Of a stretch of 53,530 nt of DNA, positions 11,272-46,089 are shown in pieces. The stretch is taken from positions 1-53,530 of the forward strand of contig JANQPV010000043.1 of NCBI GenBank assembly GCA_028285305.1. The letters run 5' to 3'. The DNA is from Alphaproteobacteria bacterium. Lineage in GTDB: Bacteria; Pseudomonadota; Alphaproteobacteria; SMXP01. The stretch's first letter is position 1; the number at the start of each line of letters is the position of its first letter. Made by a program: the position numbers and the translations under genes. The notes beneath the pieces are model-generated. The model was not told the DNA's origin. It saw only the letters and a list, made by a program, of their open reading frames with translations, and made no database searches.

Positions 11272-11907
11272 ATGGCGGAAGACGAGCTCAACACCCAAGC
11301 TCACAAAAAACTGAACGGAGGCGTGTCTGGCACCACTGTTGTGAAGGGGCTTGACGAGGCGGCTGCCGACCGCGGCGCACGGTCCTCCGGGCTGCCTCCG
11401 GTCCATTTGTGGAACCCGCCCTATCGGGGGCCCATTCCCATGGAAATTAGGCGTGATGGTACGTGGTACTATATGGGAACGCCGATCCGTCGCAAGCCGA
11501 TGGTGCGTCTCTTTTCGAGTGTGTTGCGCCGGGACGGCGATGCGTATTTTCTGGTCACACCGGTCGAGAAGGTGGGGATCAACGTTGAAGACGTCCCGTT
11601 TGTCGTCGTGGAAATGCGCGTGGAACAAGAAGGGCACGTTCAGATCTTGAGTTTCCGTACCCAAGTCGGAGATTGGGTCGTCGCAGATGGCGAGCATCCG
11701 CTCAGGATGGAGTTCGGCGATGAAACCGGCGAGCCCGCGCCCTACATCCACGTGCGTTCCAGGCTTGACGGCCGGATCAATCGGGCCGTGTATTATGATC
11801 TCGTCGAGCTGGGAGAAGATGCTCTTGTGGATGGCGAGCGCCAATTCGGCGTGTGGAGTTCGGGCGTATTCTTTCCGTTCGCTCCTTCCGACCAGGTTCA
11901 CGCCTGA
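11272..11907 (+). CDS. DUF1285 domain-containing protein
   Basis: A 211-residue soluble protein of the DUF1285 family. Family marks are HLWNPP, the GTWYYMGTPI strand, RLFSSVLRRDGD and YFLVTPVEKVGI. The function is not established. In alphaproteobacteria it is regularly found divergent from moxR and upstream of a Nudix CoA pyrophosphatase and cca, as here. The first 45 residues are variable. The Nudix gene starts 21 bases after its stop, so the two are probably cotranscribed. Confidence 0.88.
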   Translation: MAEDELNTQAHKKLNGGVSGTTVVKGLDEAAADRGARSSGLPPVHLWNPPYRGPIPMEIRRDGTWYYMGTPIRRKPMVRLFSSVLRRDGDAYFLVTPVEKVGINVEDVPFVVVEMRVEQEGHVQILSFRTQVGDWVVADGEHPLRMEFGDETGEPAPYIHVRSRLDGRINRAVYYDLVELGEDALVDGERQFGVWSSGVFFPFAPSDQVHA

Positions 11908-11928
11908 CGAGAAAAGGGCCGAAACGGA

Positions 11929-12588
11929 ATGCAAATCAGTTCAAAGACCAAGTCATCAAATGCACCATTGCGTCAGGCTCTAAAGGATTCCTTGGCGCAG
12001 AACCTGGCGGAGATCGACGACCGCTTGGGAGACTTCGCTCTGAACCCCCAGTGGCGACAGGAACGTGAAACGCAGGCCGCAGACGGAGGTCTGAGAGATG
12101 CGGGTGTGCTGGTTCCGCTCATCGAACGGTCCAACGGCGTGAGCGTTCTTCTTACTCAGCGTACCGAGCACCTCTCGAAGCACGCGGGGCAAATTGCATT
12201 TCCGGGTGGCCGCGTCGATGAGACTGATGGTGGTCCTGTTGGCGCAGCGCTCCGGGAGACTCACGAAGAAGTCGGTATTGAACCCCATCAAGTTGACGTT
12301 CATGGGTTTTTGGATACGTACGAGACGGGAACCGGGTTTCGCATTCACCCGATCGTAGGATTTGTTGATCCGGATTTCCAACTTCTCATCAATGAGCACG
12401 AAGTCGCGGAAGCGTTCGAAGTTCCGTTCGATTTTCTTATGGATCCAGATAACCATCAACGTCACTCAGCGGTCTGGCGAGGAAAGAACCGGCAGTACTA
12501 CGCTATTCCCTACGGAAATTACTATATTTGGGGCGCGACCGCTGGTATTTTGGTGGCGATGTATGCGCGGGTGTTTGGAACAGACTGA
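11929..12588 (+). CDS. CoA pyrophosphatase, Nudix family (NudL-like)
   Basis: A 219-residue Nudix hydrolase. The CoA-specific motif LLTQRTEHLSKHAGQ precedes FPGG, and the Nudix box ends in RETHEEVGI with all metal-binding glutamates. This combination marks enzymes that split CoA, preferably oxidised CoA, into phosphopantetheine and 3',5'-ADP. The ATG at 11929 has only a weak AAAAGGG site upstream. It is the second gene of the plus-strand operon. Confidence 0.92.
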   Translation: MQISSKTKSSNAPLRQALKDSLAQNLAEIDDRLGDFALNPQWRQERETQAADGGLRDAGVLVPLIERSNGVSVLLTQRTEHLSKHAGQIAFPGGRVDETDGGPVGAALRETHEEVGIEPHQVDVHGFLDTYETGTGFRIHPIVGFVDPDFQLLINEHEVAEAFEVPFDFLMDPDNHQRHSAVWRGKNRQYYAIPYGNYYIWGATAGILVAMYARVFGTD

Positions 12589-12609
12589 TGCAAGGAGGCA
12601 TTTAATCTC

Positions 12610-13011
12610 TTGACCGAGGACATGGCGTGGATTGCAGGCGGCTGCCATTGCGGTGCGGTTGCATTTGAGGTCCAAGTGCCCGCGAAGGTGACCGCCCAAA
12701 GATGTAATTGCTCCATTTGTTCGGCGACGGGTTTTGTGCATTTGATTGTTCCTCGTTCCAGGTTTCGCTTAAAGACTTCCGAAGACAATCTGACCACATA
12801 CACGTTCAATTCACACGTTGCTCGGCATTTGTTTTGCAAAGTCTGTGGTGTAAAGAGCTTTTATGTTCCAAGGTCGAATCCTGATGGATACAGCATTAAC
12901 ATAAACTGCTTGGATCAATCTAAATTCAAGAACATCGAGATTGAAGACTTCGACGGACAGAATTGGGAAGAGAATGCCGAGCGCCTCGCTCATCTAAGTA
13001 AGGAAAAGTGA
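12610..13011 (+). CDS. GFA family (CENP-V/GFA zinc domain) protein
   Basis: A 133-residue protein of the GFA fold. Zinc ligands are in place: GGCHCGAV near the N-terminus, CNCSIC in the middle and CKVCG later. The family is named after a glutathione-dependent formaldehyde-activating enzyme, but most members have no proven substrate. I chose the TTG start at 12610 because AAGGAGG at 12592-12598 is 11 bases away; the ATG at 12622 would be 23 away. It sits between the Nudix and VOC genes with short gaps. Confidence 0.85.
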   Translation: MTEDMAWIAGGCHCGAVAFEVQVPAKVTAQRCNCSICSATGFVHLIVPRSRFRLKTSEDNLTTYTFNSHVARHLFCKVCGVKSFYVPRSNPDGYSININCLDQSKFKNIEIEDFDGQNWEENAERLAHLSKEK

Positions 13012-15858: not shown

Positions 15859-16533
15859 TCAGCTGTTCTTGGTAAAGAGCTCAAGGGTCCGTTTGAGGGC
15901 CAGCTCCGCCGACGGCTTGTGATAGTCGGACCGTCGGTTGGAGTTGAAGCCGTGACCGGCGTCGTACACATAAACAGGCACATCCGGATGGGCCGCTTTC
16001 ACCTTCTCCACGTCCGACATGGGAATGGTTTCATCTTTCTCACCGAAATGGAGAATGGTGGGGCACTGAGGCGTTTCTTCCACAAAATCGACGACCAACC
16101 TGCCATAGTAGCCTGAGGCAGCTGCTAAATCCGTGCAACGGCACGCGGCCACCCAGCTGACCGATCCTCCATAGCAATAGCCTGTGATGAAGGCGGGCCC
16201 CGTCAGTGTAAGCTGGTTAATGCAGGTTTGAACATCCGCGACGACGTGGTCCCAAGATGTCGCGCCCGCTAGCTTTCGACCTGTTTCGATGCCGTCGGCC
16301 GTGTATCCTCCTTGAAAGTTCTTATGCAGGCGGTCGAAGAGTTGGGGGGCGAGAACCTGGAATCCGCGGTCCGCGTATTCGTCACAGAGCTCTCGAATAT
16401 GGTCCGTTACGCCAAAGATTTCCTGGACGAGAACGAGGCCTCCTTTTCTCGTTCCAGTGGGCTGCACATGGTAACAGCCAAACTTCTCGCCGTCGGCGCT
16501 TTCAAGTTGAATGGTGGACCCCTTCAATCGCAT
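15859..16533 (-). CDS. Dienelactone hydrolase family protein
   Basis: A 224-residue alpha/beta hydrolase. The Cys-Asp-His triad of the family is intact: C120 in GYCYGG, D167 in EKDETIP and H194 in AGHGF, with E38 in the QEIFG oxyanion strand. Family members open dienelactones in chlorocatechol breakdown, but many genomic copies act on other esters. The ATG at 16533 follows a GAGGAAAG site. It starts 19 bases after the membrane-protein stop. Confidence 0.9.
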   Translation of the reverse strand: MRLKGSTIQLESADGEKFGCYHVQPTGTRKGGLVLVQEIFGVTDHIRELCDEYADRGFQVLAPQLFDRLHKNFQGGYTADGIETGRKLAGATSWDHVVADVQTCINQLTLTGPAFITGYCYGGSVSWVAACRCTDLAAASGYYGRLVVDFVEETPQCPTILHFGEKDETIPMSDVEKVKAAHPDVPVYVYDAGHGFNSNRRSDYHKPSAELALKRTLELFTKNS

Positions 16534-16552
16534 ACATCTTTCCTCGCTTGGA

Positions 16553-17410
16553 TTATTTGCCGGCTGCGCCGCGACGCCTCGCCCCTTTGAGAAGCGGTGA
16601 AACAAACAGGCTCGTAAATAAGGCGCTTACAAAGATCTTAAACACTGCCAGCACCGTTGAGAAGTACATATCGCGGTCGCTGTGCAAGATATCGGTCAGA
16701 CTGCACCGGTAGGTCTCCATCAAATCAAACAAGATGGCGCGCATGGCGTGATCGTAGAGATAGACCGTGTACAGAAACTGGAAGTCGCGCTCTTGTTCCA
16801 TCTCCAATAGATTGCCGCTCTGAATTTGGGCATTGCAAAACGTTTGTTGGGGGTCCAGCGAAAGCCGGTCTTCACTGGCCTGGAGTGTCACCCCCAAGAA
16901 TTCCTCCGACAGCGGCGCCACCACGGTGTCAAATGCGAAGGGCTCAAATGTCGCCACAAAATGGGGTAGGGCCAAGAACATAAGAGCGGCGGCAAGGAAG
17001 CTGAACGCGGATGAATTCCCGCTGCCGCGCAAGTAATCGATGATGTAGGTCAGCGAGACAAGGGGAACATAAAGAATGATCAAGCCGAGGGTGGACAAAA
17101 CGACAATGCCAGCCGGTACTTGTATCCACAAACTGGCTTGATCGAGGTCGATCCCCAAAAGGGCGAAAATGAAAGCCCCAACCAGGGTTAGAAGTGACAG
17201 GCCAGCGATGGCCAGCGGTACGAGCGCGCGAATGCAACGGCCGAGGGTTGTAAAGACCTTTTGGTTGAGTTTGGCAATCGACTGGCGATCGAACGGAAAC
17301 CGGCACAGCGCCAGAAACAATCTCGGCAAGTATGTCAAAGAGATGAGGACAAGCAGCATCGCCACGGAAAAGCCGATCTCGCCTGCCTGATAGATGACAT
17401 CAAGTACCAT
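16553..17410 (-). CDS. Hypothetical multi-pass membrane protein
   Basis: A 285-residue protein I do not recognise. It has about four helices in the first half (roughly 12-35, 60-85, 95-120, 135-155), a polar central region with two cysteines, and a C-terminal helix followed by an arginine/lysine tail (KGARRRGAAGK). Its start lies behind a hairpin that partly contains the ribosome site (see 17412-17437). It appears cotranscribed with the dienelactone hydrolase gene. Confidence 0.7.
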   Translation of the reverse strand: MVLDVIYQAGEIGFSVAMLLVLISLTYLPRLFLALCRFPFDRQSIAKLNQKVFTTLGRCIRALVPLAIAGLSLLTLVGAFIFALLGIDLDQASLWIQVPAGIVVLSTLGLIILYVPLVSLTYIIDYLRGSGNSSAFSFLAAALMFLALPHFVATFEPFAFDTVVAPLSEEFLGVTLQASEDRLSLDPQQTFCNAQIQSGNLLEMEQERDFQFLYTVYLYDHAMRAILFDLMETYRCSLTDILHSDRDMYFSTVLAVFKIFVSALFTSLFVSPLLKGARRRGAAGK

Positions 17411-17411
17411 C

Positions 17412-17437
17412 GGAGCCCCCTCCAGATTGAGGGCTCC
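17412..17437 (-). promoter_or_regulatory. Hairpin overlapping a ribosome site
   Basis: On the minus strand GGAGCCC and GGGCTCC can pair, with GGAGG of the ribosome site in the loop and next to the 3' arm, immediately upstream of the ATG at 17410. This could limit translation of the membrane protein. It could also be chance in a GC-rich leader. Confidence 0.4.
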
Positions 17438-17567
17438 AGTATACGCGTGCGAAAGAATTACTCACCTGAAAAATCGAACGGCTGCCGCGAGACTTTGTGA
17501 AATCCCATTCACGAAAGGACTGAATGCATTGCTGTGTGTTTCGAAGGCGGAATTCAGCGCCGCAGAA

Positions 17568-18665
17568 CTAGGTGGCGAAGCGAAAATGCATGACATCGCC
17601 GTCTTGAACGACATACTCTTTGCCTTCAAGCCGCAGCTTGCCTGCATCTTTTGCGCCGGCTTCGCCATTGCACGCGAAATAGTCATCGATCGAAATGGTT
17701 TCTGCTCGGATAAATCCGTGTTCAAAGTCTGTGTGAATCACGCCCGCGGCTTGAGGGGCCTTTGTGCCTTGCGTGACGGTCCAGGCCCGGGCCTCTTTCG
17801 GGCCGGCCGTGAAATACGTAATGAGGCCCAAAAGATCATAGCCGGCCCGGATGAGGCGGTTGAGGCCGGGTTCGTCCAGACCAATATCTCGTAGATATTC
17901 CAGACGTTCGTCGTCTTCGAGCTGAGAAAGCTCTGCCTCTATTTTGGCGGAGATAACCACGCTCACGGCACCCTCGCTTTCCGCCCTTTTTTGCACGACT
18001 TGCGAAAATGTATTGCCGGAAGCAGCGCTCCCTTCGTCGACATTGCAGACATAGAGCACCGGCTTAGATGTGAGCAAGTTCAGTGAGCGGAACGCACTTT
18101 GGTCCTCGACGGAGACGTCCGCCAAGCGCGCGGGCTTGCCCTCGCGCAGGAGACCAAGGCATTGTTCGATCAGCTCGATGAGCTTTTTTGCTTCTTTGTC
18201 GTTCCCCTTGGCTTTCTTTTCCAGGGCGGGTAAACGGTTTTCCAAGCTCTCCAAATCTGCCAGCATGAGCTCGGTTTCTACCGTATCGGCATCGGCAGCA
18301 GGATCAATCCGTCCGTCGACATGGGTGATGTCGTCATCCTCAAAGCACCTCAATACGTAGGCGATGGCATCAACCTCTCGAATATGAGCGAGGAACTGAT
18401 TGCCCAGCCCTTCGCCTTTGGAAGCACCGCTCACGAGGCCGGCAATGTCAACGAAATTAATACGTGTAGGGATGACCTCGGCGGACTTCGCTATTTCGGC
18501 AATTCGGGGCAGACGTTCGTCCGGTACGGCGACATCGCCAACATTGGGCTCGATTGTACAGAACGGATAGTTTTCAGCTTGAGCCGCTGCTGTTTGCGTG
18601 AGCGCATTAAAGAGGGTGGATTTGCCCACATTGGGCAAGCCGACGATGCCGCATTTAAACCCCAT
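17568..18665 (-). CDS. ychF: Redox-regulated ATPase YchF (Obg-like)
   Basis: A 365-residue Obg-family ATPase. G1 is GLPNVGKST (8-16), switch/G3 region DIAGLVSGASKGEGLG, and the altered G4 NVDE replaces the NKxD of GTPases, which explains its ATP preference. A coiled-coil region around 130-170 and a C-terminal TGS domain complete the fold. It binds the ribosome and is linked to the oxidative stress response. It lies after pth and rplY on the same strand. Confidence 0.96.
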   Translation of the reverse strand: MGFKCGIVGLPNVGKSTLFNALTQTAAAQAENYPFCTIEPNVGDVAVPDERLPRIAEIAKSAEVIPTRINFVDIAGLVSGASKGEGLGNQFLAHIREVDAIAYVLRCFEDDDITHVDGRIDPAADADTVETELMLADLESLENRLPALEKKAKGNDKEAKKLIELIEQCLGLLREGKPARLADVSVEDQSAFRSLNLLTSKPVLYVCNVDEGSAASGNTFSQVVQKRAESEGAVSVVISAKIEAELSQLEDDERLEYLRDIGLDEPGLNRLIRAGYDLLGLITYFTAGPKEARAWTVTQGTKAPQAAGVIHTDFEHGFIRAETISIDDYFACNGEAGAKDAGKLRLEGKEYVVQDGDVMHFRFAT

Positions 18666-34495: not shown

Positions 34496-34546
34496 CAGTT
34501 GCGTCCTGACTTGTGCACCCGGCGGTCCAAAAGCTTGGGTGGATAA
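34460..34546 (+). CDS. 28-codon leader ORF coupled to ParA-like gene
   Basis: ATG at 34460 is 7 bases after AAAGG (34448-34452), directly behind the riboswitch. It encodes 28 residues (MRTFSVVALS...KSLGG) and stops at TAA 34544-34546, which overlaps the ATG at 34546 of the ParA-like gene as TAATG. The geometry suggests that ribosomes read this ORF and re-start on the ATPase. The peptide itself has no known motif. Confidence 0.5.
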   Translation: MRTFSVVALSPFQLRPDLCTRRSKSLGG

Positions 34547-35289
34547 TGTTGCAAGCAATGAGAGTTATCGTCTTTGCGTCTCAAAAAGGCGGGTCCGGAA
34601 AAACCACTTTGTCCGGTCACATAGCGGTCGCTGCAGAACAGGATGGGTTTGGGCCAGTGGCTCTTGTCGATACCGATCCGCAAGGCTCTCTAGCGAAATG
34701 GTGGAATGTCCGAGAAACGCCAGAGCCCGCTTTCATCCAGTCCGTTTTTTCAAACCTCTTTCATGATCTCGATCATGCACGCAACGAAGGGTTTCGTTTG
34801 GTGGTTGTGGATACGCCGCCGGCGGTGACCCGCGCGATCTCGGAAGTCGTGAGCTTTGCCGACCTTGTTGTGGTGCCAACCCGGCCAAGCCCGCACGACT
34901 TAAGGGCTGTGGGACCAACCGTTGATATTGTCGAGTCCAAAAAGAAACAAATGATGTTCGTCGTGAATGGCGCGACCGCCCGGGCTCGCATCACGTCCGA
35001 AGCGGCGGTCGCTTTGTCCCAGCACGGCACCGTCGCACCGACGATGGTGCATCATAGAGTGGACTTTGCGGCCAGTATGATTGATGGGCGGACGGTTCTG
35101 GAATCAAATCCAAATGGGCGATCCAGTAAAGAAATCAGGGATCTTTGGTCTTACATGAAGGAGCGTTTGCAACGCGTGGAGACGATTGGGGCCGGGTATG
35201 TGGAAGATGTCCAAACCTCGAATGTTGTTTCCCAAGTCAACGCTCTTGGACAACGCACACCCGCTTTTGGCCGCCGTGTTTTGCAGTAG
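34546..35289 (+). CDS. ParA/MinD-like P-loop ATPase
   Basis: A 247-residue ParA-type ATPase. The deviant Walker A KGGSGKTT with signature lysine, the switch DTDPQGSLAKWW and the Walker B-like VVVDTPPA are complete. Such ATPases position DNA or protein cargo on the nucleoid. I start it at the ATG overlapping the leader ORF stop; the internal ATG at 34558 (MRVIVFASQ) is the classical family start and equally possible. No parB, parS or replication gene is near, so this is an orphan ParA, paired with the RHH gene 50 bases on. Confidence 0.88.
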   Translation: MLQAMRVIVFASQKGGSGKTTLSGHIAVAAEQDGFGPVALVDTDPQGSLAKWWNVRETPEPAFIQSVFSNLFHDLDHARNEGFRLVVVDTPPAVTRAISEVVSFADLVVVPTRPSPHDLRAVGPTVDIVESKKKQMMFVVNGATARARITSEAAVALSQHGTVAPTMVHHRVDFAASMIDGRTVLESNPNGRSSKEIRDLWSYMKERLQRVETIGAGYVEDVQTSNVVSQVNALGQRTPAFGRRVLQ

Positions 35290-36143: not shown

Positions 36144-36312
36144 CGCTCCCTTTGGGTTTCCCCGCTTGCCCAGGGAGCGAAAAACTGGCGCCGCCGAAAA
36201 ACCAATTACCTCTGACCCCTCCTGCCCACTCGCAAGCCAGAGGTAAGACGTGCTGAGACGACTTGGTTTTGATGGGTCTTTGTTGTTGCAGCTAGGCGGC
36301 GCCACTTTTTTT
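36144..36312. terminator. Nested inverted-repeat element, two-way terminator
   Basis: A perfect 10-bp repeat TGGCGCCGCC (36186-36195) / GGCGGCGCCA (36295-36304) encloses two stacked stems: AAAACCAA (36198-36205) with TTGGTTTT (36263-36270), and TTACCTCTG (36206-36214) with CAGAGGTAA (36238-36246). A T-run follows on the plus strand (36306-36312), and a TTTTT tract on the minus strand (complement of 36180-36184). A further 8-bp stem CGCTCCCT/AGGGAGCG lies at 36144-36179. It separates two convergent genes. It is larger than a normal terminator and may be a repeat element or small RNA. Confidence 0.8.
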
Positions 36313-37034
36313 CAGTACTCTTCTGTAAATTGTACGTCGGGATAGACGGTATAAGTGTACGGAATATAGAGAATTACATCCAGTATTCCCGAGCGCATTA
36401 CACCAACGTGGCGATCGATGTCTTCAACCTTGACCTTGTGACCGTCGCCCAGGCTTTCCGTAACTAAATTTATTTCCGATAGAATTTTCTCCAGCAGCTC
36501 AGTACGATATTGTTGTGGGTCGACAAGGCTAACTTCCAGTTGACCGACACTTTGGATTTTGGTTCGGCCGATCTTTTCGATATTCTCTGAGAACTTTTCG
36601 AGTCGTGACGCAAGTACTTCTGAGTTGGCACCCTGTTTTGGGATGGGCGTTCTTAATGAGAATGTAGCGCAAACGGTGTCCGTTCTCCCACAGTCAGTGA
36701 AATCCAGCCGATAGCGCCTGTTATCTTCCGTTAGAGGAAGAACCACGCCATCTTTGTTAACTGCCAAACTCACGTTTTGATCTGCCCGTGCCGCCTCGAA
36801 TAACTTCCCAAGGGTTTCATTGATCTCTCGTCCGCGTGTTTCTGTTTCGATTGAATCGTTGGCGATTCTGACTTCCAGCAGCATGAAATCACCAGTCTTG
36901 GTGACAAACACGCCTGGAATCCCCTCTTCGACTTTTCGGGCTGTAACGACGATCTCGTCGATCTGAGCCAAAGCAGGGAGGGGGGCCATAATGCAAAGAG
37001 CAAGTACGGTAAGGGCGGACCAAGAACGTAGCAT
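36312..37034 (-). CDS. Periplasmic protein with TonB-box-like N-terminus
   Basis: A 240-residue exported protein. The signal peptide ends in ALA (about residue 22) and is followed at once by IDEIVVTARKVEE, the sequence seen after the signal of TonB-dependent receptors. No plug or barrel follows; the rest is a soluble domain with VSLAVNKDGVVLPL and a two-cysteine stretch (CGRTDTVC). Similar short proteins occur in sphingomonad- and Hyphomonas-like genomes without known role. The ATG at 37034 has an AAGGAA site. Confidence 0.72.
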   Translation of the reverse strand: MLRSWSALTVLALCIMAPLPALAQIDEIVVTARKVEEGIPGVFVTKTGDFMLLEVRIANDSIETETRGREINETLGKLFEAARADQNVSLAVNKDGVVLPLTEDNRRYRLDFTDCGRTDTVCATFSLRTPIPKQGANSEVLASRLEKFSENIEKIGRTKIQSVGQLEVSLVDPQQYRTELLEKILSEINLVTESLGDGHKVKVEDIDRHVGVMRSGILDVILYIPYTYTVYPDVQFTEEY

Positions 37035-37801
37035 TTTCAGTTCCTTTTCTTTCGGCTCATTTCTCTTCCCTTTTTGCGCATTGCCGCGTGTGTTCACGCA
37101 ATGCTAGCGCACGCCCACAGGCTCTCGCAACCCGTGTTGCCTGTGTGAGGACTTTCGATTGTCGTTCAATGTGTGGCCAAAGTTGCAGCTGAAACGGGCT
37201 GTTCGGAATTTTTTCTGGAGTTCTTTTTGGCCTTCGCCCGCTGCCGGAGCGACAGAGTTCGATTCATCCTTCACCAGGTCTTGCATCCGGACCAATTTCC
37301 CGGCCGCGCCAGGCGGCTCCGCCATGCGCGGTTATTCCGTGGACAAATTCGAAAACAGGACTGTGAGAAAACCTGTTTGTCGGCTTCTCGAGTAAGCGCG
37401 AGATCATTCCAAAGCACAGTAAAACAAGGCAAAACACAGTAACGGCTGGTGCATCATGCATTCAGAACTCTCCGAAGATCGAAACACAAACCGGCAAGAT
37501 GTGGTTTGTTCGTTCAGGTCCTGTGACCGGGGTCGCACATGTGATGGGGCGCGCCGGTGCTCTCTCCGAACTCTACTCCCAACCGAATGGTCACCCAGAG
37601 GCATACGTTAGAACCAGGGCGCTACAGATTTACGAAGCTGCTCGGCACGCGTGAACACATCGTGATCACCATGAGCTCTATTAACAGGTCACCGAACGTG
37701 GGCTTGAAAGCTAAGTGGTTTTGGAAAAAGGCAGAAATCGCAGCCGAAAGATTACGATGTGTTTGCGACAATTTTTTCGACCGATAAGTCTGGTCAATGA
37801 G
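37035..37801. other. Long intergenic region without a supported gene
   Basis: About 770 bases upstream of the antiporter operon. Short frames on both strands lack ribosome sites and protein-like composition. A 7-bp stem AAACAGG (37353-37359) / CCTGTTT (37372-37378) and a repeated CACAGTAA (near 37417 and 37434) are the only structures I see. A TTGCGA/TAGCAT pair on the minus strand near 37130 could be the promoter of the periplasmic-protein gene. It might hide a small RNA. Confidence 0.5.
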
Positions 37802-37875: not shown

Positions 37876-38358
37876 TTGAGGACGTTAAGCTTTTTAGCTG
37901 CGCTTGCAGCCCTTTGGCTGCTGTTGTCGGGCTATTTCGACAAACCGCTGCTCCTTATCTTCGGCGCGCTCTCCGTCTTGTTGGTCGCTTACGTCTCTCA
38001 TCGCATGGACTTGGTTGATGATGAGTCTGTTCCGATTCAATTGGGGTGGAGCATCGTCACGTACTGGGGCTGGCTTTTGGGGGAGATCGGCAAATCGAAC
38101 ATCGAGGTGGCGAAAGCGGTGATATTGGGCGGACCAAACCGAATAAAGCCAAAAGTCTTCACTCACAATACGCAGCTCAAGTCCACGCTCAACAAAGTGA
38201 TCTTGGCAAACTCGATTACCCTAACTCCCGGTACCGTGAGCGTTGAACTGATAGGCGATTCAATCACGATACATGCGCTTTCCGATAGGGCGGGCGATCC
38301 ATCAACAATTGCTGAGATGGAACGCCGCCTTCTCAAAATGGAGGGGTCGGCCACATGA
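37876..38358 (+). CDS. mnhE: Na+/H+ antiporter subunit E
   Basis: A 160-residue MnhE/MrpE protein with two close N-terminal helices and a soluble C-domain; GGPNRIKPKVF and NSITLTPGTVSVEL are family marks. MrpE helps assemble the multi-subunit antiporter that exchanges cytoplasmic Na+ (or another cation) for protons. The start is TTG at 37876 with GGGG 7 bases before; no ATG is available near. It is first of a nine-gene operon with 1-11 base overlaps at most junctions. Confidence 0.92.
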   Translation: MRTLSFLAALAALWLLLSGYFDKPLLLIFGALSVLLVAYVSHRMDLVDDESVPIQLGWSIVTYWGWLLGEIGKSNIEVAKAVILGGPNRIKPKVFTHNTQLKSTLNKVILANSITLTPGTVSVELIGDSITIHALSDRAGDPSTIAEMERRLLKMEGSAT

Positions 38359-38717
38359 CCTTTGAGACTGCTTGGATCGTCGGGACAGTGGCGCTCTTTG
38401 TCGCAATGCTTATTACCATGGTGCGGCTATTCTTGGGGCCATCGTTGTATGATCGTGTTTTAGCCGTCAATTCTTTCGGCACCAAAACTGTCGCTATCCT
38501 AGCCATCCTCAACTTCATCATGGGCCGGCCTGACTTTATCGACATTGCCTTGCTCTACGCGCTTTTGAATTTTGTCGCCACGATTGCCGTTTTGAAGTTC
38601 TTCCGCTATCGGAAGTTCCATTTGGCACTCTCGCACATCGAACATGACTCCGATCCGGAGGGCTTGGTCGATCCGTTTGCTCGATCCGGAGAAAAGCCGA
38701 GAGGAGACGGACCTTGA
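38355..38717 (+). CDS. mnhF: Na+/H+ antiporter subunit F
   Basis: A 120-residue MrpF/MnhF protein: three helices, with RLFLGPSLYDRVLAVNSFGTK between the first and second, and RPDFIDIALLYALLNF, the strongest family marks. The C-terminal tail of about 35 residues is polar and longer than usual. It overlaps mnhE by 4 bases and mnhG by 1. Confidence 0.93.
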   Translation: MTFETAWIVGTVALFVAMLITMVRLFLGPSLYDRVLAVNSFGTKTVAILAILNFIMGRPDFIDIALLYALLNFVATIAVLKFFRYRKFHLALSHIEHDSDPEGLVDPFARSGEKPRGDGP

Positions 38718-39082
38718 TGGCCGAATTCAACGATATGATCGCACCCGCGTTGCCGATCGTGAGTAACATATTAATGCTGGTGGGCGGATTCTTTGTGATC
38801 GTCGGATCCATCGGCATTGCACGATTTCCAGACTTCTATGCACGGCTTCATGCCGCGGGCGTTACCGACACCATGGGCGCCGAATTGATGCTCATCGGAT
38901 TGATGATCCAGGCCGGATTGGGGCTGGTGACGGTCAAGCTCATATTTATCATCTTCTTTGTGTTTTTCACCAGTCCAACCGCAACTCATGCGATCGCGAA
39001 TGCCGCTTACCGGGCCGGATTAACACCGTTTTCTAGTAGTACAAAGGAAGGCCGCATAAGGGGGCAGGTGGAAGATGATTGA
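38717..39082 (+). CDS. mnhG: Na+/H+ antiporter subunit G
   Basis: A 121-residue MrpG/MnhG protein with three helices and the family motif GIARFPDFYARLHAAGVTDTMG. It starts in a TGATG overlap with mnhF; a TTG three bases earlier is possible. Its end overlaps the DUF4040 gene by 8 bases. Confidence 0.93.
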   Translation: MAEFNDMIAPALPIVSNILMLVGGFFVIVGSIGIARFPDFYARLHAAGVTDTMGAELMLIGLMIQAGLGLVTVKLIFIIFFVFFTSPTATHAIANAAYRAGLTPFSSSTKEGRIRGQVEDD

Positions 39083-39662
39083 AGAAGCAGCCCTTCAATT
39101 CGATGTCACAACTGCGATCGACATCATCCTTATGATCTTTCTGCTGATCTCCGCCCTGGCCATCGTCGTCATGAGACACTTGTTCTCAATCGCGATGGTT
39201 TCCGGCGTGTACAGTCTTTTGTCGGCCGCCTTCTTTGTTAATCTAGATGCGGTGGATGTTGCCTTTACGGAGGCAGCAGTCGGAGCCGGCATGTCGACGA
39301 TCTTGATCCTGGGTGCATTGCTGCTCACGTCGAGAAGAGAGAAAATTACGCCAAACCGCTCGGCGTTTATCCCCCTCATTGTTGTTGTTGTAACGGGAGC
39401 TGCCCTTTTTTATGCAACGTTCGACATGCCAAATTTCGCCGATCCCAATTCGCCGGCAAATACGGATGTTGGCTTACAGTATATTCAGCGCAACTATGAC
39501 GATATTGGAGTGCCCAATATTGTTACATCCGTATTGGCGAGCTATCGCGGTTTCGACACCTTGGGAGAAACACTGGTTGTGTTTGCGGCTGGGTTGAGTG
39601 TGCTCGTTCTGTTGGGGGTTAGCTCTGCAGGCAGACTGACCGGCAGGGAGGACGAAACGTGA
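39075..39662 (+). CDS. DUF4040 subunit (MrpA C-terminal-like / MbhD-E-like)
   Basis: A 195-residue protein with five to six helices. The N-terminal DUF4040 part has the AVDVAFTEAAVGAGMSTILILGALLL stretch that in canonical systems is part of the large MrpA subunit. The C-terminal part (GFDTLGETLVVFAAGLSVL) resembles the MbhE-type segment of MrpA. So a domain normally fused to MrpA is a separate protein here. It shares a 4-base GTGA overlap with mnhB. Confidence 0.88.
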   Translation: MIEEAALQFDVTTAIDIILMIFLLISALAIVVMRHLFSIAMVSGVYSLLSAAFFVNLDAVDVAFTEAAVGAGMSTILILGALLLTSRREKITPNRSAFIPLIVVVVTGAALFYATFDMPNFADPNSPANTDVGLQYIQRNYDDIGVPNIVTSVLASYRGFDTLGETLVVFAAGLSVLVLLGVSSAGRLTGREDET

Positions 39663-40102
39663 ACCATCATCTGGTCCTCAGAGTCGTCACAAAGATCCTG
39701 GTTCCCGTCATTCTATTGTTTGGACTCTATGTGCAATTTCACGGGGATTACGGTCCCGGCGGAGGATTTCAGGCAGGCGTGATCTTTGCGGCTGGAATCA
39801 TTCTGTACGGTCTTGTTTTTGGCCTGGACGCGGCAAAGCAAGTCGCACCGCCGCTCATTGTGCAGCGGTTGATGGCTTTCGGAGTTCTCCTTTATGCCGG
39901 TGTGGGCGTTGTCACTCTCGCATTGGGTGAGAATTACTTGGACTACGACATTCTGCATCCTGATTTAGAGCATCATACTGGACAGCACTACGGAATTCTG
40001 GCCGTCGAATTGGGTGTCGGGATCACCGTCGCTACGGTGATGATGTTGCTGTTTTATGGGTTTGCAGGGCGAAATTTCGATATCAAGGATGAAGACTGGT
40101 AG
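39659..40102 (+). CDS. mnhB: Na+/H+ antiporter subunit B
   Basis: A 147-residue MnhB protein with four helices. Marks are LFGLYVQFHGDYGPGGGFQAGV and the later YGILAVELGVGITVATVM. The GTG start overlaps the upstream stop; the end overlaps mnhC by one base. Confidence 0.93.
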   Translation: MNHHLVLRVVTKILVPVILLFGLYVQFHGDYGPGGGFQAGVIFAAGIILYGLVFGLDAAKQVAPPLIVQRLMAFGVLLYAGVGVVTLALGENYLDYDILHPDLEHHTGQHYGILAVELGVGITVATVMMLLFYGFAGRNFDIKDEDW

Positions 40103-40494
40103 TGTCAGCAGAATTTATCATCGGTCACTACAATTATTGGATTATCGTCATCCTGATGATGGCCGGTCTCTATGTTGTGCTTGCACGCGGCAACTTAGTG
40201 AAAAAGCTGGTTGGCCTAAACGTCTTTCAGACATCTGTTTTTTTGCTCTATATCACCATCGGCAAGGTTCATGGCGGAACGGCCCCCATTGAAATCAAAG
40301 GTGCCTATGATGTCGTTTATTCAAACCCGCTTCCTCACGTCCTGATCCTGACGGCAATTGTGGTGGGTGTCTCGACACTGGCGGTTGGGCTCGCCTTGGT
40401 CGTCCGTGTACGGGAAACCTACGGTACAATTGAAGAAGACGAGCTGGTGGAGGCCGATCTGGTCGCCGAGTTTGGCGAGGCCGGAAAAACCTGA
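40102..40494 (+). CDS. mnhC: Na+/H+ antiporter subunit C (NuoK-like)
   Basis: A 130-residue NuoK/MrpC protein with three helices; GLYVVLARGNLVKKLVGLNVFQTSV and DPLPH-like NPLPHVLILTAIVVGVS are typical. In complex I and Mrp this subunit lies between antiporter-like subunits and carries a proton path. Coupled to its neighbours by one-base overlaps. Confidence 0.92.
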   Translation: MSAEFIIGHYNYWIIVILMMAGLYVVLARGNLVKKLVGLNVFQTSVFLLYITIGKVHGGTAPIEIKGAYDVVYSNPLPHVLILTAIVVGVSTLAVGLALVVRVRETYGTIEEDELVEADLVAEFGEAGKT

Positions 40495-41987
40495 TGCTGG
40501 ACTTCGTTACGGAACATCTCCCCGCCCTTCAAGTGGTGGTGCCGCTCATCGCGGCTCCGGTCATACTCTTGTATCAGAAGGAAGCGTTCGCCTGGGGTTG
40601 GGCGCTGTTGACAACTTGGACTACTTTTGCGTTGTCTGGCTTGCTGGTTCACGAGGTCTTTAGCCAAGAGTTCATTTCCTACGACCTTGGCGGTTGGGCG
40701 CCGCCCTTAGGCATCGAATACCGCGTCGATGCGGCAAACGCTCTCGTCATTGCGATCGTTGCAGGTATTGCAGCCTTGGTGACCACTTACGCCCGAAAGA
40801 GCATCCAGGCCGAAGTGCAGGGCCGGAATCAGCCGTTCTTCTATGTGTTGCTCCTCTTATGTGTCAGCGGTCTGATCGGTGTCGCCATCACCGGGGATGC
40901 GTTCAACCTGTTCGTCTTCCTGGAAATCTCTTCGCTTTCGACCTATACGATGGTGGCGCTCGGTGGCAGACGAGACCGGCGCGCCTACACTGCGGCCATC
41001 CGCTATTTGATTACCGGAACCATCGGGGCCACGTTCTACGTTATCGGCGTCGGCCTTTTGTACATGGTCACTGGCACGCTCAATATGGCTGATCTTGCAG
41101 TGAGCATTGCCGGCATGGACAACAATACGACCGTTCAAGCCGCGTTTGCTTTCATTGTCATCGGTTTGGGCCTTAAAGTCGCTATCTTCCCGCTGCATCT
41201 TTGGTTGCCGAACGCCTATACATACGCGCCCTCGGTGGTGACCATCTTTCTCGCCGCGACGTCGACCAAAGTGGCCGTATACGCCCTAATGCGCTTTTTG
41301 TTCACCGTCTTCGGCATCCGCTTTGATTTCGAACTCGATAGTCTTGCCTTTCTCTTCCTGCCCCTTGCCATTATGGGCATGTTTATCCCATCGATTGTGG
41401 CGGCGTTCCAGGTGGACGTGAAGCGATTGCTGGCTTACTCCAGCGTGGCCCAGATTGGCTATATGTTGCTGGGCATCAGCCTGGCAACATCTGCAAGTCT
41501 GACTGCGACGTCCATCCATCTTTTCAATCATGCGCTGATGAAGGCCGCCCTTTTTATGGCGCTTGGAGCCGTGATGTTGCGGCTTAAGTCAACAATCATC
41601 GACGATCTCGCTGGTATTGGCAAAACAATGCCGTGGACAACGGCTGGGTTTGCTTTGGGGGGATTGAGTTTGATTGGTGTGCCGCTCACCGTTGGATTTG
41701 TGAGCAAGTGGTTGCTCATTCAAGCCTCGTTCGCAAGCCAGCAACCTTGGCTCGCGGGGTTGATTGTCGTCAGTTCTCTGATTGCTGTGGTCTATGTTTG
41801 GCGGGTTGTCGAAGTGGCGTACTTTTCTCCCGTACCCGAGGGCCGGGTGCGCCAGGAAGCCCCCCTTTCGATGCTCATTCCCATGTGGGTCCTGGTCGCC
41901 GCTAACATCTACTTCGGAATAGACACTGATATCACAATCCGCCTCGCTAGTCTGGCTGCCGAAGCTCTGCTGGGGGGTGCGCCGTGA
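40494..41987 (+). CDS. mnhD: Proton-conducting antiporter subunit D (first copy)
   Basis: A 497-residue NuoN/MrpD-type protein with about 14 helices. Key parts are LFVFLEISSLSTYTMVALGG (helix 5 glutamate), KVAIFPLHLWLPNAYTYAPS (helix 7 lysine) and KRLLAYSSVAQIGYML. It is the closest of the three large subunits to canonical MrpD. Overlaps: 1 base with mnhC, 4 with the next. Confidence 0.92.
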   Translation: MLDFVTEHLPALQVVVPLIAAPVILLYQKEAFAWGWALLTTWTTFALSGLLVHEVFSQEFISYDLGGWAPPLGIEYRVDAANALVIAIVAGIAALVTTYARKSIQAEVQGRNQPFFYVLLLLCVSGLIGVAITGDAFNLFVFLEISSLSTYTMVALGGRRDRRAYTAAIRYLITGTIGATFYVIGVGLLYMVTGTLNMADLAVSIAGMDNNTTVQAAFAFIVIGLGLKVAIFPLHLWLPNAYTYAPSVVTIFLAATSTKVAVYALMRFLFTVFGIRFDFELDSLAFLFLPLAIMGMFIPSIVAAFQVDVKRLLAYSSVAQIGYMLLGISLATSASLTATSIHLFNHALMKAALFMALGAVMLRLKSTIIDDLAGIGKTMPWTTAGFALGGLSLIGVPLTVGFVSKWLLIQASFASQQPWLAGLIVVSSLIAVVYVWRVVEVAYFSPVPEGRVRQEAPLSMLIPMWVLVAANIYFGIDTDITIRLASLAAEALLGGAP

Positions 41988-43462
41988 TCGACGCTCAAAC
42001 AGCTTTTTTGGCAGCATTTATAATTCCAGCAATCGGGGCGGTCCTTATCGCGCTGACCGGTAAGTCCCCTAATCTTCGTGAGACGGTAACGCTGATCACG
42101 GCCATTATTCTCTTTGCTGATATTCTGATCGTGTTCCATGGCTATCTCGCCGGCGACGTCAGTGAGATCATTGTTCTCGAGATCATTCCGTCCATCCCCA
42201 TCGCGTTTGAGATAGAGCCCCTTGGTATGATCTTCGCCACCCTCGCCAGCGGCTTATGGATCCTCAATTCGATTTACTCCATCGGCTATATGCGCGGGAA
42301 CAATGAGGAAAACCAGACCAGGTTCTATGTTTGTTTTGCGATTGCCATCGGCAGTACGGTGGCAATTGCGTTCGCGGCCAATATGTTCACACTGTTTGTT
42401 TTCTACGAAGTGCTGACGCTTTCGACCTATCCGCTGGTTGCCCACAAAGAGACGGAAGAGGCGCGTCGGGGCGCGCGTGTCTACTTTGGCATATTGATCT
42501 CCACTTCGATTGGATTCCTATTGGTCGCGGTAGTCTGGACGTGGATCGTTTCCGGCACCCTCGATTTTGAATTGCGCGGGATCCTCAGTGGCAAAATCGA
42601 TGAGCCGCTGCTGCCACTCCTTTTGGCGCTTTACATGTTCGGCATCGGCAAGGCGGCATTGATGCCGTTTCACCGATGGTTGCCCAATGCCATGGTGGCT
42701 CCAACCCCTGTCAGTGCGCTCTTACATGCGGTCGCCGTCGTTAAGGCCGGCGTATTCACAGTCCTCAAAGTCACTGTTTACATCTTTGGCGTTGATTTCT
42801 TGAGTACAACGGGTGCATCCCAGTGGCTCATGTGGTTGGCTGCCTTTACCATTCTCGCATCCTCCCTGATTGCGATGACAAAGGACAATCTGAAAGCGAG
42901 GCTCGCTTATTCCACCATAAGCCAGCTTTCCTACATCACGCTCGGAGCCGCGCTCGCCACGTCCATGGGGATTATTGGTGGGGCGCTGCATATTGTGATG
43001 CACGCGTTTGGGAAGATTACCCTCTTCATGTGCGCTGGCGCCATTTACGTGGCTCATCACAAGACGGAAATCAGCGACATGAAGGGATTGGGCCGCGTGA
43101 TGCCGTGGACGTTCGGTGCTTTCTTAGTGGGTGCGCTGAGTATCATCGGATTGCCCCCGTTAGGAGGAGCATGGAGCAAGTTCGCCCTTATGATCGCGGC
43201 GGCCGATACGGGTCAACTGGTTATGATGGGTGTGTTGATGGTGTCATCGGTCTTGAACGTGGCCTATCTCCTGCCGATTGTTTTCAGAGGATTCTTCCAG
43301 CCCCTGCCGGAAGGGGGAGGTGCCACAAGCCTCAATGACGGTAAGCTTCATGAAGCACCGCTCTTTTGCATTATTCCCCCGGTTTTGACGGCATTTGGGT
43401 GTTTGCTTTTGTTCATTTATGCGGACCCGATCCGTATCTTTATCGCCCTCATGTTGGAATAG
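41984..43462 (+). CDS. Second proton-conducting subunit (NuoL/MrpA N-terminal-like)
   Basis: A 492-residue antiporter-like protein with about 14 helices. It has LFVFYEVLTLSTYPLVAHKET, then HRWLPNAMVAPTPVSALLHAVAVVKAG, a motif nearer to NuoL/MrpA than to MrpD, and ARLAYSTISQLSYI. It could stand for the N-terminal half of a split MrpA. GTG start inside the previous gene. Assignment among the L/M/N types is by eye. Confidence 0.85.
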   Translation: MIDAQTAFLAAFIIPAIGAVLIALTGKSPNLRETVTLITAIILFADILIVFHGYLAGDVSEIIVLEIIPSIPIAFEIEPLGMIFATLASGLWILNSIYSIGYMRGNNEENQTRFYVCFAIAIGSTVAIAFAANMFTLFVFYEVLTLSTYPLVAHKETEEARRGARVYFGILISTSIGFLLVAVVWTWIVSGTLDFELRGILSGKIDEPLLPLLLALYMFGIGKAALMPFHRWLPNAMVAPTPVSALLHAVAVVKAGVFTVLKVTVYIFGVDFLSTTGASQWLMWLAAFTILASSLIAMTKDNLKARLAYSTISQLSYITLGAALATSMGIIGGALHIVMHAFGKITLFMCAGAIYVAHHKTEISDMKGLGRVMPWTFGAFLVGALSIIGLPPLGGAWSKFALMIAAADTGQLVMMGVLMVSSVLNVAYLLPIVFRGFFQPLPEGGGATSLNDGKLHEAPLFCIIPPVLTAFGCLLLFIYADPIRIFIALMLE

Positions 43463-43482
43463 CTAGCAAACGGAATTGGATA

Positions 43483-43746
43483 ATGTCAGAGCACGGACCA
43501 AAAGATGACGTTAAGGGGATTTTCGATAATCCGAGAAACGTCAATTTGTTGAAGTATTCTCTTTATGCTTCGTGCCTTCTTGTTGCTATTGCTGACTTTT
43601 TTGTCGACGGCCATCCGTATTTCGACATCGAAAAGTTTCCCGTGTTTTACGGTCTTTACGGCGGGATCATGTGTGCGGCGTTGGTGATTGCTGCCAAATG
43701 GATGCGGATCATTGTGATGCGGGATGAGGATTACTATGACCGTTGA
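43483..43746 (+). CDS. Small membrane protein inside the antiporter operon
   Basis: An 87-residue protein with two membrane helices (about 25-40 and 50-70) and a polar N-terminus. I do not recognise it. It lies 20 bases after the second D-type gene and overlaps the third by 11 bases, so it is almost certainly expressed with them. It could be an accessory or assembly subunit. Confidence 0.75.
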   Translation: MSEHGPKDDVKGIFDNPRNVNLLKYSLYASCLLVAIADFFVDGHPYFDIEKFPVFYGLYGGIMCAALVIAAKWMRIIVMRDEDYYDR

Positions 43747-45445
43747 TTTGCCATTCGGCACGGTTCCCCCCGTACTCCTGTTTTTGCTGGGTGGCCTTCT
43801 CATCGCCGTGACGCCGAATGCGTTCTTGCGACGGCTAATTCTGGTTGTGGTTCCCGTTTATGGCTTGGTGCAGCTTTTTGCGCTCCCCATGGGGTCGAGT
43901 CTTGAATTTGATTTCTTTGGTGAAACCCTGACCCTGTTAAGGGTCGACAAGACCTCTATTATCTTTGCAACGATCTTTCATCTGGCAGCCGTGCTGGCGG
44001 CAGTTTATGGCTGGGCCAACCTCGATCGGATGCAACAGTCGGTGGCGCTTCTCTACCCGGGATCGGCGATTGGTGCAGTCTTCGCCGGAGATCTGATCAC
44101 GCTCTTTGTGTTTTGGGAGATGGCGGCCGTCACGTCGGTGTTTTTGATTTTGGCCGGCAGTACGGTGCGAGCCTCCAAAGCGGCTATTCGCTACCTCGTG
44201 ATCCAAGTGGGATCGGGCGTTTTGCTGCTGTTTGGTGCGATTTTGTATTTCCAAGAAACTGGATCCATTGCCTTTGAGAAGATGGAATTGGGCAGTATCG
44301 CGACCATCGCAATTTTTCTCGCATTTGGGATCAAGAGCGCCTTTCCGTTGCTGCACAACTGGCTTCAAGATTCATATCCGGAGTCTACGATCACCGGCAC
44401 ACTGATCCTGTCGATCTTCACAACGAAGATGGCGGTCTATGCCCTGTTTCGGGGCTTTCCCGGTGAGCAGTTGCTCATTTGGATCGGCGCCGTCATGACG
44501 TGTTTCCCGGTGTTCTTTGCGGTGATCGAAAATGATCTGCGCCGGGTCCTCTGCTACAGCTTAAACAATCAGGTGGGATTCATGGTGGTCGGCATTGGCA
44601 TCGGAACGCCGCTGGCTCTCAACGGCACCGCTTCCTACGTCTTTTGTAACATCATTTTCGAAGGCTTGTTGTTCATGAGCATGGGAGCCGTCCTATTGCG
44701 CACGGGCACGGTCAAAGGCTCGGAACTGGGAGGCCTCTATAAGACCATGCCACTGACCACGTTCTACTGCATCATTGGTGCGGCGAGCATTTCGGCCTTT
44801 CCCTTGTTTGCTGGCTTTGTCTCCAAGGGAATGATCATTGATGGCTTGGCCAAAGAACACATGCTCATTCCATGGCTGATGCTGGTATTCGCAGCCGCGG
44901 GTGTATTTCACCACTCGGGAATCAAGATTCCCTACTTTGCCTTTTTTGCTCACGACAGTGGAAGGCGGGTGAAAGATGCCCCGCTAAGTATGCAAATCGC
45001 AATGGCGCTCTCGGCGATCTTGTGTGTCGCCATCGGCACTTTTCCAGATCCGCTTTATGCGCTCTTGCCGTATCCCGTGGACTACGTCCCTTACACTGCG
45101 CCCCATGTCTTACATCAACTTCAGCTGCTGCTCTTTTCAGCACTTGCTTTTACTTTACTAACGATTTCAGGCATTTATCCCCCTGAGTTGAGATCGACAA
45201 ACTTGGATTTCGATTGGTTCTATCGCAAACCGGGCGCCGCTTTGGTGAGAGGTGTGGTCACCGGGATTGCCGCAATAAATGGGGCCATGACAAATTTTGT
45301 AGGTAGACGGATAGAAGGCGCATTACGGAGCTTGTATGCGCTCCATGGACCGGAGGGTCGCTTGGCGCGGACTTGGCCTTCAGGTTTTATGGCCATGTGG
45401 ATCGCGATTCTGTTGACGCTGGCCCTGCTTGTGAACTATCTATAA
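43736..45445 (+). CDS. Third proton-conducting subunit (MrpD/NuoM-like)
   Basis: A 569-residue antiporter-like protein, longer than the other two by a C-terminal extension with a lateral helix and a final membrane helix. Marks are LFVFWEMAAVTSVFLILAGS, IKSAFPLLHNWLQDSYPEST and RRVLCYSLNNQVGFMV. The centre lysine and glutamate of the proton path are kept. It ends the operon; no clear terminator follows. Confidence 0.86.
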   Translation: MTVDLPFGTVPPVLLFLLGGLLIAVTPNAFLRRLILVVVPVYGLVQLFALPMGSSLEFDFFGETLTLLRVDKTSIIFATIFHLAAVLAAVYGWANLDRMQQSVALLYPGSAIGAVFAGDLITLFVFWEMAAVTSVFLILAGSTVRASKAAIRYLVIQVGSGVLLLFGAILYFQETGSIAFEKMELGSIATIAIFLAFGIKSAFPLLHNWLQDSYPESTITGTLILSIFTTKMAVYALFRGFPGEQLLIWIGAVMTCFPVFFAVIENDLRRVLCYSLNNQVGFMVVGIGIGTPLALNGTASYVFCNIIFEGLLFMSMGAVLLRTGTVKGSELGGLYKTMPLTTFYCIIGAASISAFPLFAGFVSKGMIIDGLAKEHMLIPWLMLVFAAAGVFHHSGIKIPYFAFFAHDSGRRVKDAPLSMQIAMALSAILCVAIGTFPDPLYALLPYPVDYVPYTAPHVLHQLQLLLFSALAFTLLTISGIYPPELRSTNLDFDWFYRKPGAALVRGVVTGIAAINGAMTNFVGRRIEGALRSLYALHGPEGRLARTWPSGFMAMWIAILLTLALLVNYL

Positions 45446-45578: not shown

Positions 45579-45648
45579 AGGTGATTGATTTACTTTCTCC
45601 ATTCGCCTGGTGCGGGAAGTGGACGACAATAAAGCAAGGGAGCGGGTA

Positions 45649-46089
45649 ATGGAAAACAAGGCGGAACTCATTGATATGACCACGGAAATAATATCCGCCT
45701 ATGTGTGCAACAATTCCGTTGAAAGAGCCGAACTTCCTGGTTTGATTACGGACATTTATGCGACATTGTCGAGTCTAGGTGAGCACGAACTCAACGGCTT
45801 CAAAATGGGTGACGCTAAGCCTGCGATTGATGTGGATGAGTCGGTCACAGATGACTTTATCATTTGCTTGGAGGACGGTCGGCCTTTCAAGTCTCTTAAA
45901 CGGCATCTTAAGGCCCGGTTCAATATGACTCCCGACGAGTATCGGCGCAAATGGGGGCTGCCGAAGGATTATCCCATGGTTGCACCCAACTATGCGCAGA
46001 TGCGCTCAAACTTGGCCAAACAAATGGGCCTTGGACAAAAGCGCAAAGAAGTCACTCCAACAAAAAAGAAAAAGCGGCCAAAGTCCTAG
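45649..46089 (+). CDS. MucR/Ros family transcriptional regulator, zinc-site variant
   Basis: A 146-residue MucR homologue. The domain VTDDFIICLEDGRPFKSLKRHL, TPDEYRRKWGLP and YPMVAPNYAQMRSNLAKQMGLG is clear. Of the four zinc ligands of Ros, only C73 and H86 remain; the second Cys is D76 and the last His is F91. Zinc-free Ros homologues are known in Mesorhizobium, so the protein may still bind DNA. The ATG at 45649 follows AAGGGAG. The basic C-terminus is Lys-rich. Confidence 0.88.
   Translation: MENKAELIDMTTEIISAYVCNNSVERAELPGLITDIYATLSSLGEHELNGFKMGDAKPAIDVDESVTDDFIICLEDGRPFKSLKRHLKARFNMTPDEYRRKWGLPKDYPMVAPNYAQMRSNLAKQMGLGQKRKEVTPTKKKKRPKS

Follow-up and report, generated by a model that had tools for sequence, protein, structure and literature searches.

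An alphaproteobacterial operon with an apparently split MrpA, three antiporter-like subunits and a conserved small membrane protein fits the group 3 Mrp antiporters

Ten adjacent genes at positions 37876-45445 of a 53,530-nucleotide contig from an Alphaproteobacteria bacterium (JANQPV010000043.1, positions 1 to 53,530, assembly GCA_028285305.1; "the window" below is this whole stretch) form an Mrp operon in the order E-F-G-DUF4040-B-C-D1-D2-small-D3. By its sequence the operon fits a known kind of transporter that has received little study, the group 3 Mrp antiporters, and we put the probability that its products would make up one ten-subunit Mrp-type cation/proton antiporter with three antiporter modules at about 0.67. 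The gene content, gene order, families and conservation that enter into this explanation are observed. An earlier note on this DNA, made from its letters, had read the same gene order, and all ten genes are indeed present on one strand, with Pfam backing (bit scores are from family or PDB searches; aa, amino acids; TM, transmembrane helix):

37876..38358, + strand, MrpE, 160 aa, TTG start; PF01899, 99.8 bits
38355..38717, + strand, MrpF, 120 aa, with Asp33 (D29f of Mrp) retained and Asn39 at the Mrp Asp35 position; PF04066, aligned to 6z16_F and 6cfw_B
38714..39082, + strand, MrpG, 122 aa; PF03334, TIGR01300 above its cut-off
39075..39662, + strand, DUF4040 protein, the MrpA C-terminal domain (MbhD+MbhE), 195 aa; PF13244, PF20501, NF009159 above its cut-off, matches to 6cfw_D and 7d3u_A
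39659..40102, + strand, MrpB, 147 aa; PF04039, NF009162 above its cut-off
40102..40494, + strand, MrpC, NuoK-like, 130 aa; PF00420, 6u8y_G at 74.8 bits
40494..41987, + strand, D1, antiporter-like subunit of MrpD/MbhH/MbsH type by matches and tree, 497 aa; PF00361, best 6u8y_H at 234 bits, 6cfw_H 217.7, 7qru_D 197.1
41984..43462, + strand, D2, probably an MrpA-N-domain/NuoL-like antiporter subunit, 492 aa; PF00361, 6z16_A (MrpA) 140.1 and 6hum_F 140.0 bits, then 6u8y_H of MBS 133 bits, tree support 89-90
43483..43746, + strand, small two-helix membrane protein of an unnamed family, 87 aa; present at all 80 named loci, low-confidence model with helices at 17-40 and 55-78
43724..45445, + strand, D3, antiporter subunit with TM15, lateral helix and TM16, 573 aa; PF00361, NF009310 (PRK12668) at 678.6 bits against a curated cut-off of 564

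Each gene overlaps the next by 1-23 bases; only D2 and the small gene are set apart, by 20 bases. Every product but the small protein lies above its Pfam cut-off, and the NCBIfam cut-offs are passed by G, the DUF4040 protein, B, C and D3 and not reached by E, F, D1 and D2. The DUF4040 gene combines PF13244 (MbhD) with PF20501 (MbhE), in agreement with the earlier claim that MrpA is not fused and that its C-terminal domain is a separate gene, and a Pfam search of the ten genes found no fused MrpA in the operon. The layout is thus not that of group 1 Mrp, which has seven genes, ABCDEFG, with a fused MrpA.

Group 3 Mrp has been defined by the lack of mrpA (PMC8415708) or, instead, by irregular gene order (PMC5703873). 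The window operon has no full-length mrpA and carries multiple mrpD-like genes beside other Mrp subunits, both features of this group. The cyanobacterial group 3 operon mrpCD1D2EFGAB likewise has more than one mrpD-like subunit and an irregular order, although this order is unlike that of the window and an A gene is listed (PMC5703873). The Mrp of 'Ca. Nitrospira alkalitolerans' has two NuoM/NuoL-like genes after mrpD, as in the window (PMC7784846). A small gene between the last two large subunits is not mentioned in the excerpts that describe these published group 3 Mrp.

The layout is common in bacteria and not peculiar to the source genome. Among the best 80 loci of a longer list, many of them metagenome bins, obtained by scanning named genomes with the D3 alignment, the small gene stands ahead of D3 in all 80, which bears out the small subunit of the earlier note. 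These loci come from Alpha-, Gamma- and Betaproteobacteria, Gemmatimonadota, Planctomycetota, Nitrospirota, Verrucomicrobiota and one deltaproteobacterial bin. E, F, G, DUF4040, C, D1, D2, small and D3 are complete in 67 of them, and the order is identical in all 67. A separate B is found in 53 of the 67; in the other 14, several of them from Gammaproteobacteria, the DUF4040 open reading frame (ORF) has 303-445 residues and is long enough to include B. The remaining 13 loci are cut, with the first operon gene no more than 84 bases from the start of the stretch. Because the order and the small gene are kept across the named loci, chance is excluded as an explanation. Given this spread and the published group 3 operons (PMC5703873, PMC8415708, PMC7784846), the contrast that had been drawn between this layout and standard bacterial Mrp was overstated.

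Within the class, the D3 family NF009310 occurs in 46 of 190 genomes (41 above the curated cut-off); 14 control genomes searched with an equally strict limit had none. The small gene was matched in 44 of these 46 genomes; the two outside the listed small-gene matches (G109 and G124) have gap ORFs of 149 and 91 residues with hydrophobic stretches. The small-protein profile was matched in 99 of 385 class genomes (four matches being weaker than 1e-4) and a slightly different profile in 11 of the 249 genomes of a phylum sample. Among 40 stretches from class genomes, 37 have a small-gene match, and two of the 40 (G184, G063) are complex I loci.

The likeness to archaeal layouts that the earlier note had proposed also holds. 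Haloarchaeal plasmids of Natronorubrum, Halomontanus, Natrononativus and Haloterrigena carry E-F-G-DUF4040-B-C-D1-D2-D3, the order of the window, but in all four loci the small gene is missing and D2 and D3 abut or overlap. In three loci placed in the tree described below, D1, D2 and D3 fall into the same three clades as those of the window, and all three D1 have Thr at TM8. The stand-alone Mrp of Pyrococcus furiosus resembles the window in its EFG-B-B'-C-D order and MbhD-MbhE fusion (PMC8415708). In addition, F, C, D1 and D3 are nearest to subunits of the archaeal membrane-bound hydrogenase (MBH) and membrane-bound sulfane reductase (MBS) in a search of PDB sequences: F and C score higher with MBH/MBS than with bacterial Mrp (52.0 versus 38.3 bits and 74.8 versus 39.4 bits), and the closest solved sequence relative of D3 is MBS subunit MbsH' (6u8y_X, 113.7 bits). 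The P. furiosus Mrp, MBH and MBS differ from the window in having one or two antiporter modules.

Phylogeny of the large subunits, which had been suggested as a check, separates them into three families. The first tree holds 111 of 138 collected rows, two ill-assigned rows of one locus (L192) and, for size, nine loci having been omitted; the second holds 83 rows, with long-branch rows and further loci omitted. In the 111-row tree, D1, D2 and D3 form three clades with support of 98, 100 and 100. D1 groups with MrpD, MbhH and MbsH (support 96), and in the 83-row tree NuoN is also inside the next starred set around D1; D1 is, by sequence, an MrpD-like subunit. D2 groups with the MrpA N-domain, NuoL and HyfD at support of 89 in the 111-row tree and 90 in the 83-row tree, neither of them starred. 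D3 stands apart with MbsH' (support 96, on a very short branch in the 111-row tree). The approximately unbiased (AU) test rejects a tree in which D1-D3 and bacterial MrpD, without MbhH, MbsH or MbsH', are forced into a single clade (p-AU 0.000206), so that the outcome named beforehand as refuting the note, all three subunits within ordinary MrpD, is not what we find for bacterial MrpD.

We read D2 as probably the MrpA N-domain/NuoL-like part, on support that is not decisive. Comparison with ordinary group 1/2 Mrp (6z16, 7qru, 7d3u) points the same way: these have the same subunit families as the window, and D2 scores best with the MrpA chain while D1 scores well with MrpD. The ordinary complexes differ in their fused MrpA, their two antiporter modules and the presence of MrpF Asp35. 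On helix VIII, His, Thr, Met and Val are common to NuoL and MrpA (PMC4938563); window D2 has the His (His248) and the Val (Val253), with Ala for Thr and Val for Met, and three of these columns are nearly invariant across the family (His248 in 115, Ala251 in 116 and Val252 in 116 of 116). The DUF4040 protein matches the MrpA C-terminal part as well as MbhD/MbhE. With D2 taken, as its best reading, for the MrpA N-domain/NuoL-like part, the surplus comes down to a single module. The earlier description, a split MrpA with two additional D/L-like subunits, therefore stands for the split and is corrected in the number: most economically, the functional pieces of MrpA look to be encoded by separate genes, with one antiporter module added.

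The source organism has two kinds of Mrp. A complete ordinary mrpABCDEFG operon with the group 1 layout and a 771-aa fused MrpA lies on another contig (G000:C39:96666-102466), and three NuoL/M/N-like genes are found on contig C75. The earlier note had named a separate mrpA that completes the complex as a possible refutation; the second mrpA belongs to its own complete operon, and the objection does not apply. The second Mrp could, however, mean that D2 and D3 join it as alternative large subunits and that no single ten-subunit complex is formed. We consider this very unlikely, because a match to this ordinary MrpA (E ≤ 1e-80) was found in only two (the source genome and G038) of 16 D3 carriers among 58 genomes, and because the genes of the operon remain together in order. 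Moreover, three genomes (G003, G005 and G013) each have six PF00361 proteins in two clusters of three, one being D1-D3 and the other presumably nuoL-M-N.

D3 is a separate family with a NuoL-type lateral helix. Its model (predicted local distance difference test, pLDDT, 90.6) places TM15 at 459-481, a 39-residue lateral helix at 503-541 and TM16 at 553-572. The best fold match is NuoL 8e9g_L (Z 43.5, root-mean-square deviation, rmsd, 3.9, 530 residues aligned); MrpD 7qru_D ties with it over the core only (Z 43.5, rmsd 2.2, 438 aligned), and several E. coli NuoL chains align over D3 residues 9-573 with larger rmsd. We measured the tail by motif, as the number of residues from an anchor at the end of TM15 to the Gly before TM16. 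This length is 16-20 residues in MrpA (6 of 10 measured), 49 in NuoL (7 of 10 rows; two rows gave 19, and E. coli NuoL gave 44 or 49 depending on the pattern), 54 in window D3, and 73 in D3 of complex I (10 of 10). Among Mrp D3 proteins it could be measured in 68 of 119, with 54 residues in 41 of these and 25-83 in the others. Measured to the C-terminus, the median for Mrp D3 is 72 residues (88 of 119), compared with 68-77 for NuoL (9 of 10, the NuoL of the source genome being mis-anchored at 126) and 97-98 for complex I D3. An insert of about 26 residues accompanies an extra module in other forms of complex I (PMC9040806). The length of the window D3 tail suggests a fit to a row of three modules and so favours three modules in one complex, as the note's three proton channels would have it.

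The cassette D2-small-D3 is also found in complex I. In Sinorhizobium, Ensifer, Rhizobium and their relatives, the gene order runs NuoJ, NuoK, D2, small gene, D3, NuoM, NuoN; the cassette is the same as in the window operon, whereas NuoM, NuoN and the redox subunits that follow it are not found there. The small gene accompanies D2/D3 in 11 of 12 complex I loci (two of the loci are from one species and two from one genome), and the twelfth locus is cut. That two MrpD-like subunits replace NuoL in the rhizobial 'green' complex I has been described (PMC9040806, citing Degli Esposti and Martinez Romero 2016). In the 111-row tree, the complex I D2 and D3 nest inside the Mrp D2 and D3 clades. The complex I D3 tail is about 19 residues longer than that of the window, and its last part resembles the end of NuoL at every one of the 11 loci that include this end of D3 (E between 2e-10 and 2e-7, with the positive control, E. 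coli NuoL, at 8e-10), while a NuoL-like end was found in none of 117 Mrp D3 (best E 0.099). The eleven loci are mutually related and are not independent cases. We claim no novelty for the small gene or for the NuoL-like tail.

These observations are consistent with a tentative reading to which we give somewhat less than even odds: D2-small-D3 may be a portable 'tip' cassette, clamp protein included, that has passed as a unit between cation antiporter and complex I, with D3 gaining a NuoL-type end helix on entering complex I. The length of the lateral-helix region would then tell the number of proton modules (about 17, 49-54 and 73 residues for two, three and four), and in the antiporter the cassette would make for an Mrp of three modules that uses a high number of protons per cation and has a rebuilt cation path. 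The presence of the cassette in a redox complex of rhizobia, and the fact that F, C, D1 and D3 find their best solved sequence relatives among MBH/MBS subunits, could also mean that the operon encodes the Mrp part of a larger redox- or otherwise driven complex like MBH or MBS, with the energy-input module encoded elsewhere. This is unlikely. MBH and MBS have a redox module, unlike the window operon; the nine flanking ORFs that were tested gave no hydrogenase, sulfane reductase or Nuo match, and two of them gave no match at all. Nuo redox/quinone subunits were found neither in the operon nor in those nine ORFs, and for the hydrogenase-like redox module of MBH/MBS the search covered the nine ORFs and not the rest of the genome. 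Furthermore, the ten-gene order recurs by itself in several phyla.

The small subunit is real and conserved, and none of the three family libraries searched has a name for it: Pfam and NCBIfam gave nothing at E 0.01, and PHROGs nothing at E 1. Its profile reached a best E of 0.27 against PDB sequences, its model gave no Foldseek match, and in a fusion ('Rosetta') test the profile matched none of 371 D1/D2/D3 proteins. The longer D2 of the haloarchaea appears by eye to have a charged loop in place of the small protein. As the haloarchaeal loci lack the gene, the small protein is dispensable in some versions of the design.

Residues of the proton path are largely retained in the three large subunits. 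TM5 Glu, TM7 Lys, TM8 Lys and TM12 Lys are found in 109, 109, 106 and 106 of 109 D1 rows, in 116, 116, 115 and 116 of 116 D2 rows, and in 123, 105, 124 and 112 of 125 D3 rows. The D3 TM7 Lys is Asn in 18 of the 125 rows (D3 proteins of L051-L169), which suggests that the third channel could be silent in some lineages.

The cation path has changed at one position. In ordinary Mrp, changing MrpF Asp29 abolishes activity, and Asp35 lies on the proposed Na+ path (PMC7419157). In this family, the D29f position is Asp in 98 of 99 rows and the D35f position is Asn in 96 of 99, compared with Asp at both positions in all 8 ordinary MrpF found in ten loci. Glu66 of the DUF4040 protein aligns with MbhD Glu69 and is Glu in 103 of 103 rows, and MrpC Gln43 is present in 93 of 93. 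At the MrpC His37 and His40 positions there are Thr44 and Phe47; these His also vary in ordinary alphaproteobacterial MrpC, and we draw no inference from them. The family-wide Asp35 to Asn change points to a rebuilt cation path, and ion affinity or preference may differ from that of ordinary Mrp; of the different ion use that the earlier note suggested, a changed cation path is the part that is favoured.

The same replacement of Asp35 in nearly the whole family could be read to mean a substrate other than Na+ or K+, such as Ca2+, or anion-coupled transport, for instance with bicarbonate. The Mrp of Thermomicrobium roseum is reported to catalyse Ca2+/H+ antiport (PMC5703873), and 'Ca. N. alkalitolerans' has a gene for a bicarbonate symporter close to its Mrp (PMC7784846). 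Such a substrate seems quite unlikely for the window operon, as the MrpF Asp29 position, the MbhD-type Glu and the D1 TM5 Glu are all retained, and no bicarbonate carrier is among the nine tested flanking ORFs.

If the products form one ten-subunit antiporter, the three antiporter modules would lie in one row, with D3 at the tip, then D2 in the role of the MrpA N-domain and D1 in that of MrpD. C and the DUF4040 protein would come next after D1, followed by the cation module B-F-G-E. The lateral helix of D3 would brace the row, as in NuoL and MrpA, and the small two-helix protein might sit beside D2 and D3 as a subunit that fits them together or stabilises them. Protons moving inward through up to three modules would drive a cation, by default guess Na+ or K+, out through B/F/G/E and the DUF4040/C cavity, and, with the third module, more protons would pass per cation than in ordinary Mrp.

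Several points weigh against this arrangement. D2 joins MrpA/NuoL at support of 89-90 only, and two of its four NuoL/MrpA-specific helix VIII residues are changed. A single clade of D1-D3 with MrpD, MbhH, MbsH and MbsH' is only marginally rejected (p-AU 0.0449), so that the deep branching is tentative once these archaeal subunits are included; for this weaker test we lowered the probability of the ten-subunit explanation from 0.70 to 0.67 and trimmed our confidence in a portable cassette slightly. The small-protein model is weak (pLDDT 74, predicted template modelling score 0.44), and the protein is absent from all four haloarchaeal loci. The tail measure is crude and could be applied to only the 68 (to Gly) and 88 (to the C-terminus) of 119 Mrp D3 given above, and the Mrp D3 of three loci (L159, L162 and L169) have tails of 98-119 residues with no fourth module gene seen in the operon. 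Finally, TM7 Lys is missing from 20 of 125 D3 rows and, at TM12, window D3 itself carries Glu in place of the Lys found in 112 of the 125; D3 may thus not be a full channel everywhere.

Proton modules are common to Mrp and complex I, and how module number relates to pumping ratio is an open question. If the ten-subunit explanation is true, antiporters of three modules occur naturally as well as those of two, in this case within a single genome, and the cassette found in both antiporter and complex I would illustrate the swapping of parts between such machines. In an otherwise known kind of pump, it is the small subunit and the exchange of modules that are of interest.

Other loci and flanking genes were noted in passing. 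One genome outside the class (G262; loci L173, L181, L203, L204 and L222) has three small-gene copies with group 3 neighbours (contigs C27, C51 and C95) and, on contig C23, a further cluster with four PF00361 proteins outside the small-gene loci. Near the main operon of L159, on the opposite strand (10770-12651, -), there is by eye a second D-like and C-like pair, and another antiporter-like ORF lies at 16258-17712. Recurrent gene families, each at 8-9 of 53 long-flank loci (L110, L160 and others), are found 3' of D3; by eye, they may represent a CO-dehydrogenase-type cluster. In the window, a 261-aa ORF upstream of the operon (36312-37097, - strand) has no Pfam match at E 0.001, and a gene for a ROS/MucR-type regulator lies 3' of D3 (45610-46089). 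A ParA/MipZ-type ATPase gene (34513-35289) lies a few kb upstream of the operon, and the contig may belong to a secondary replicon.

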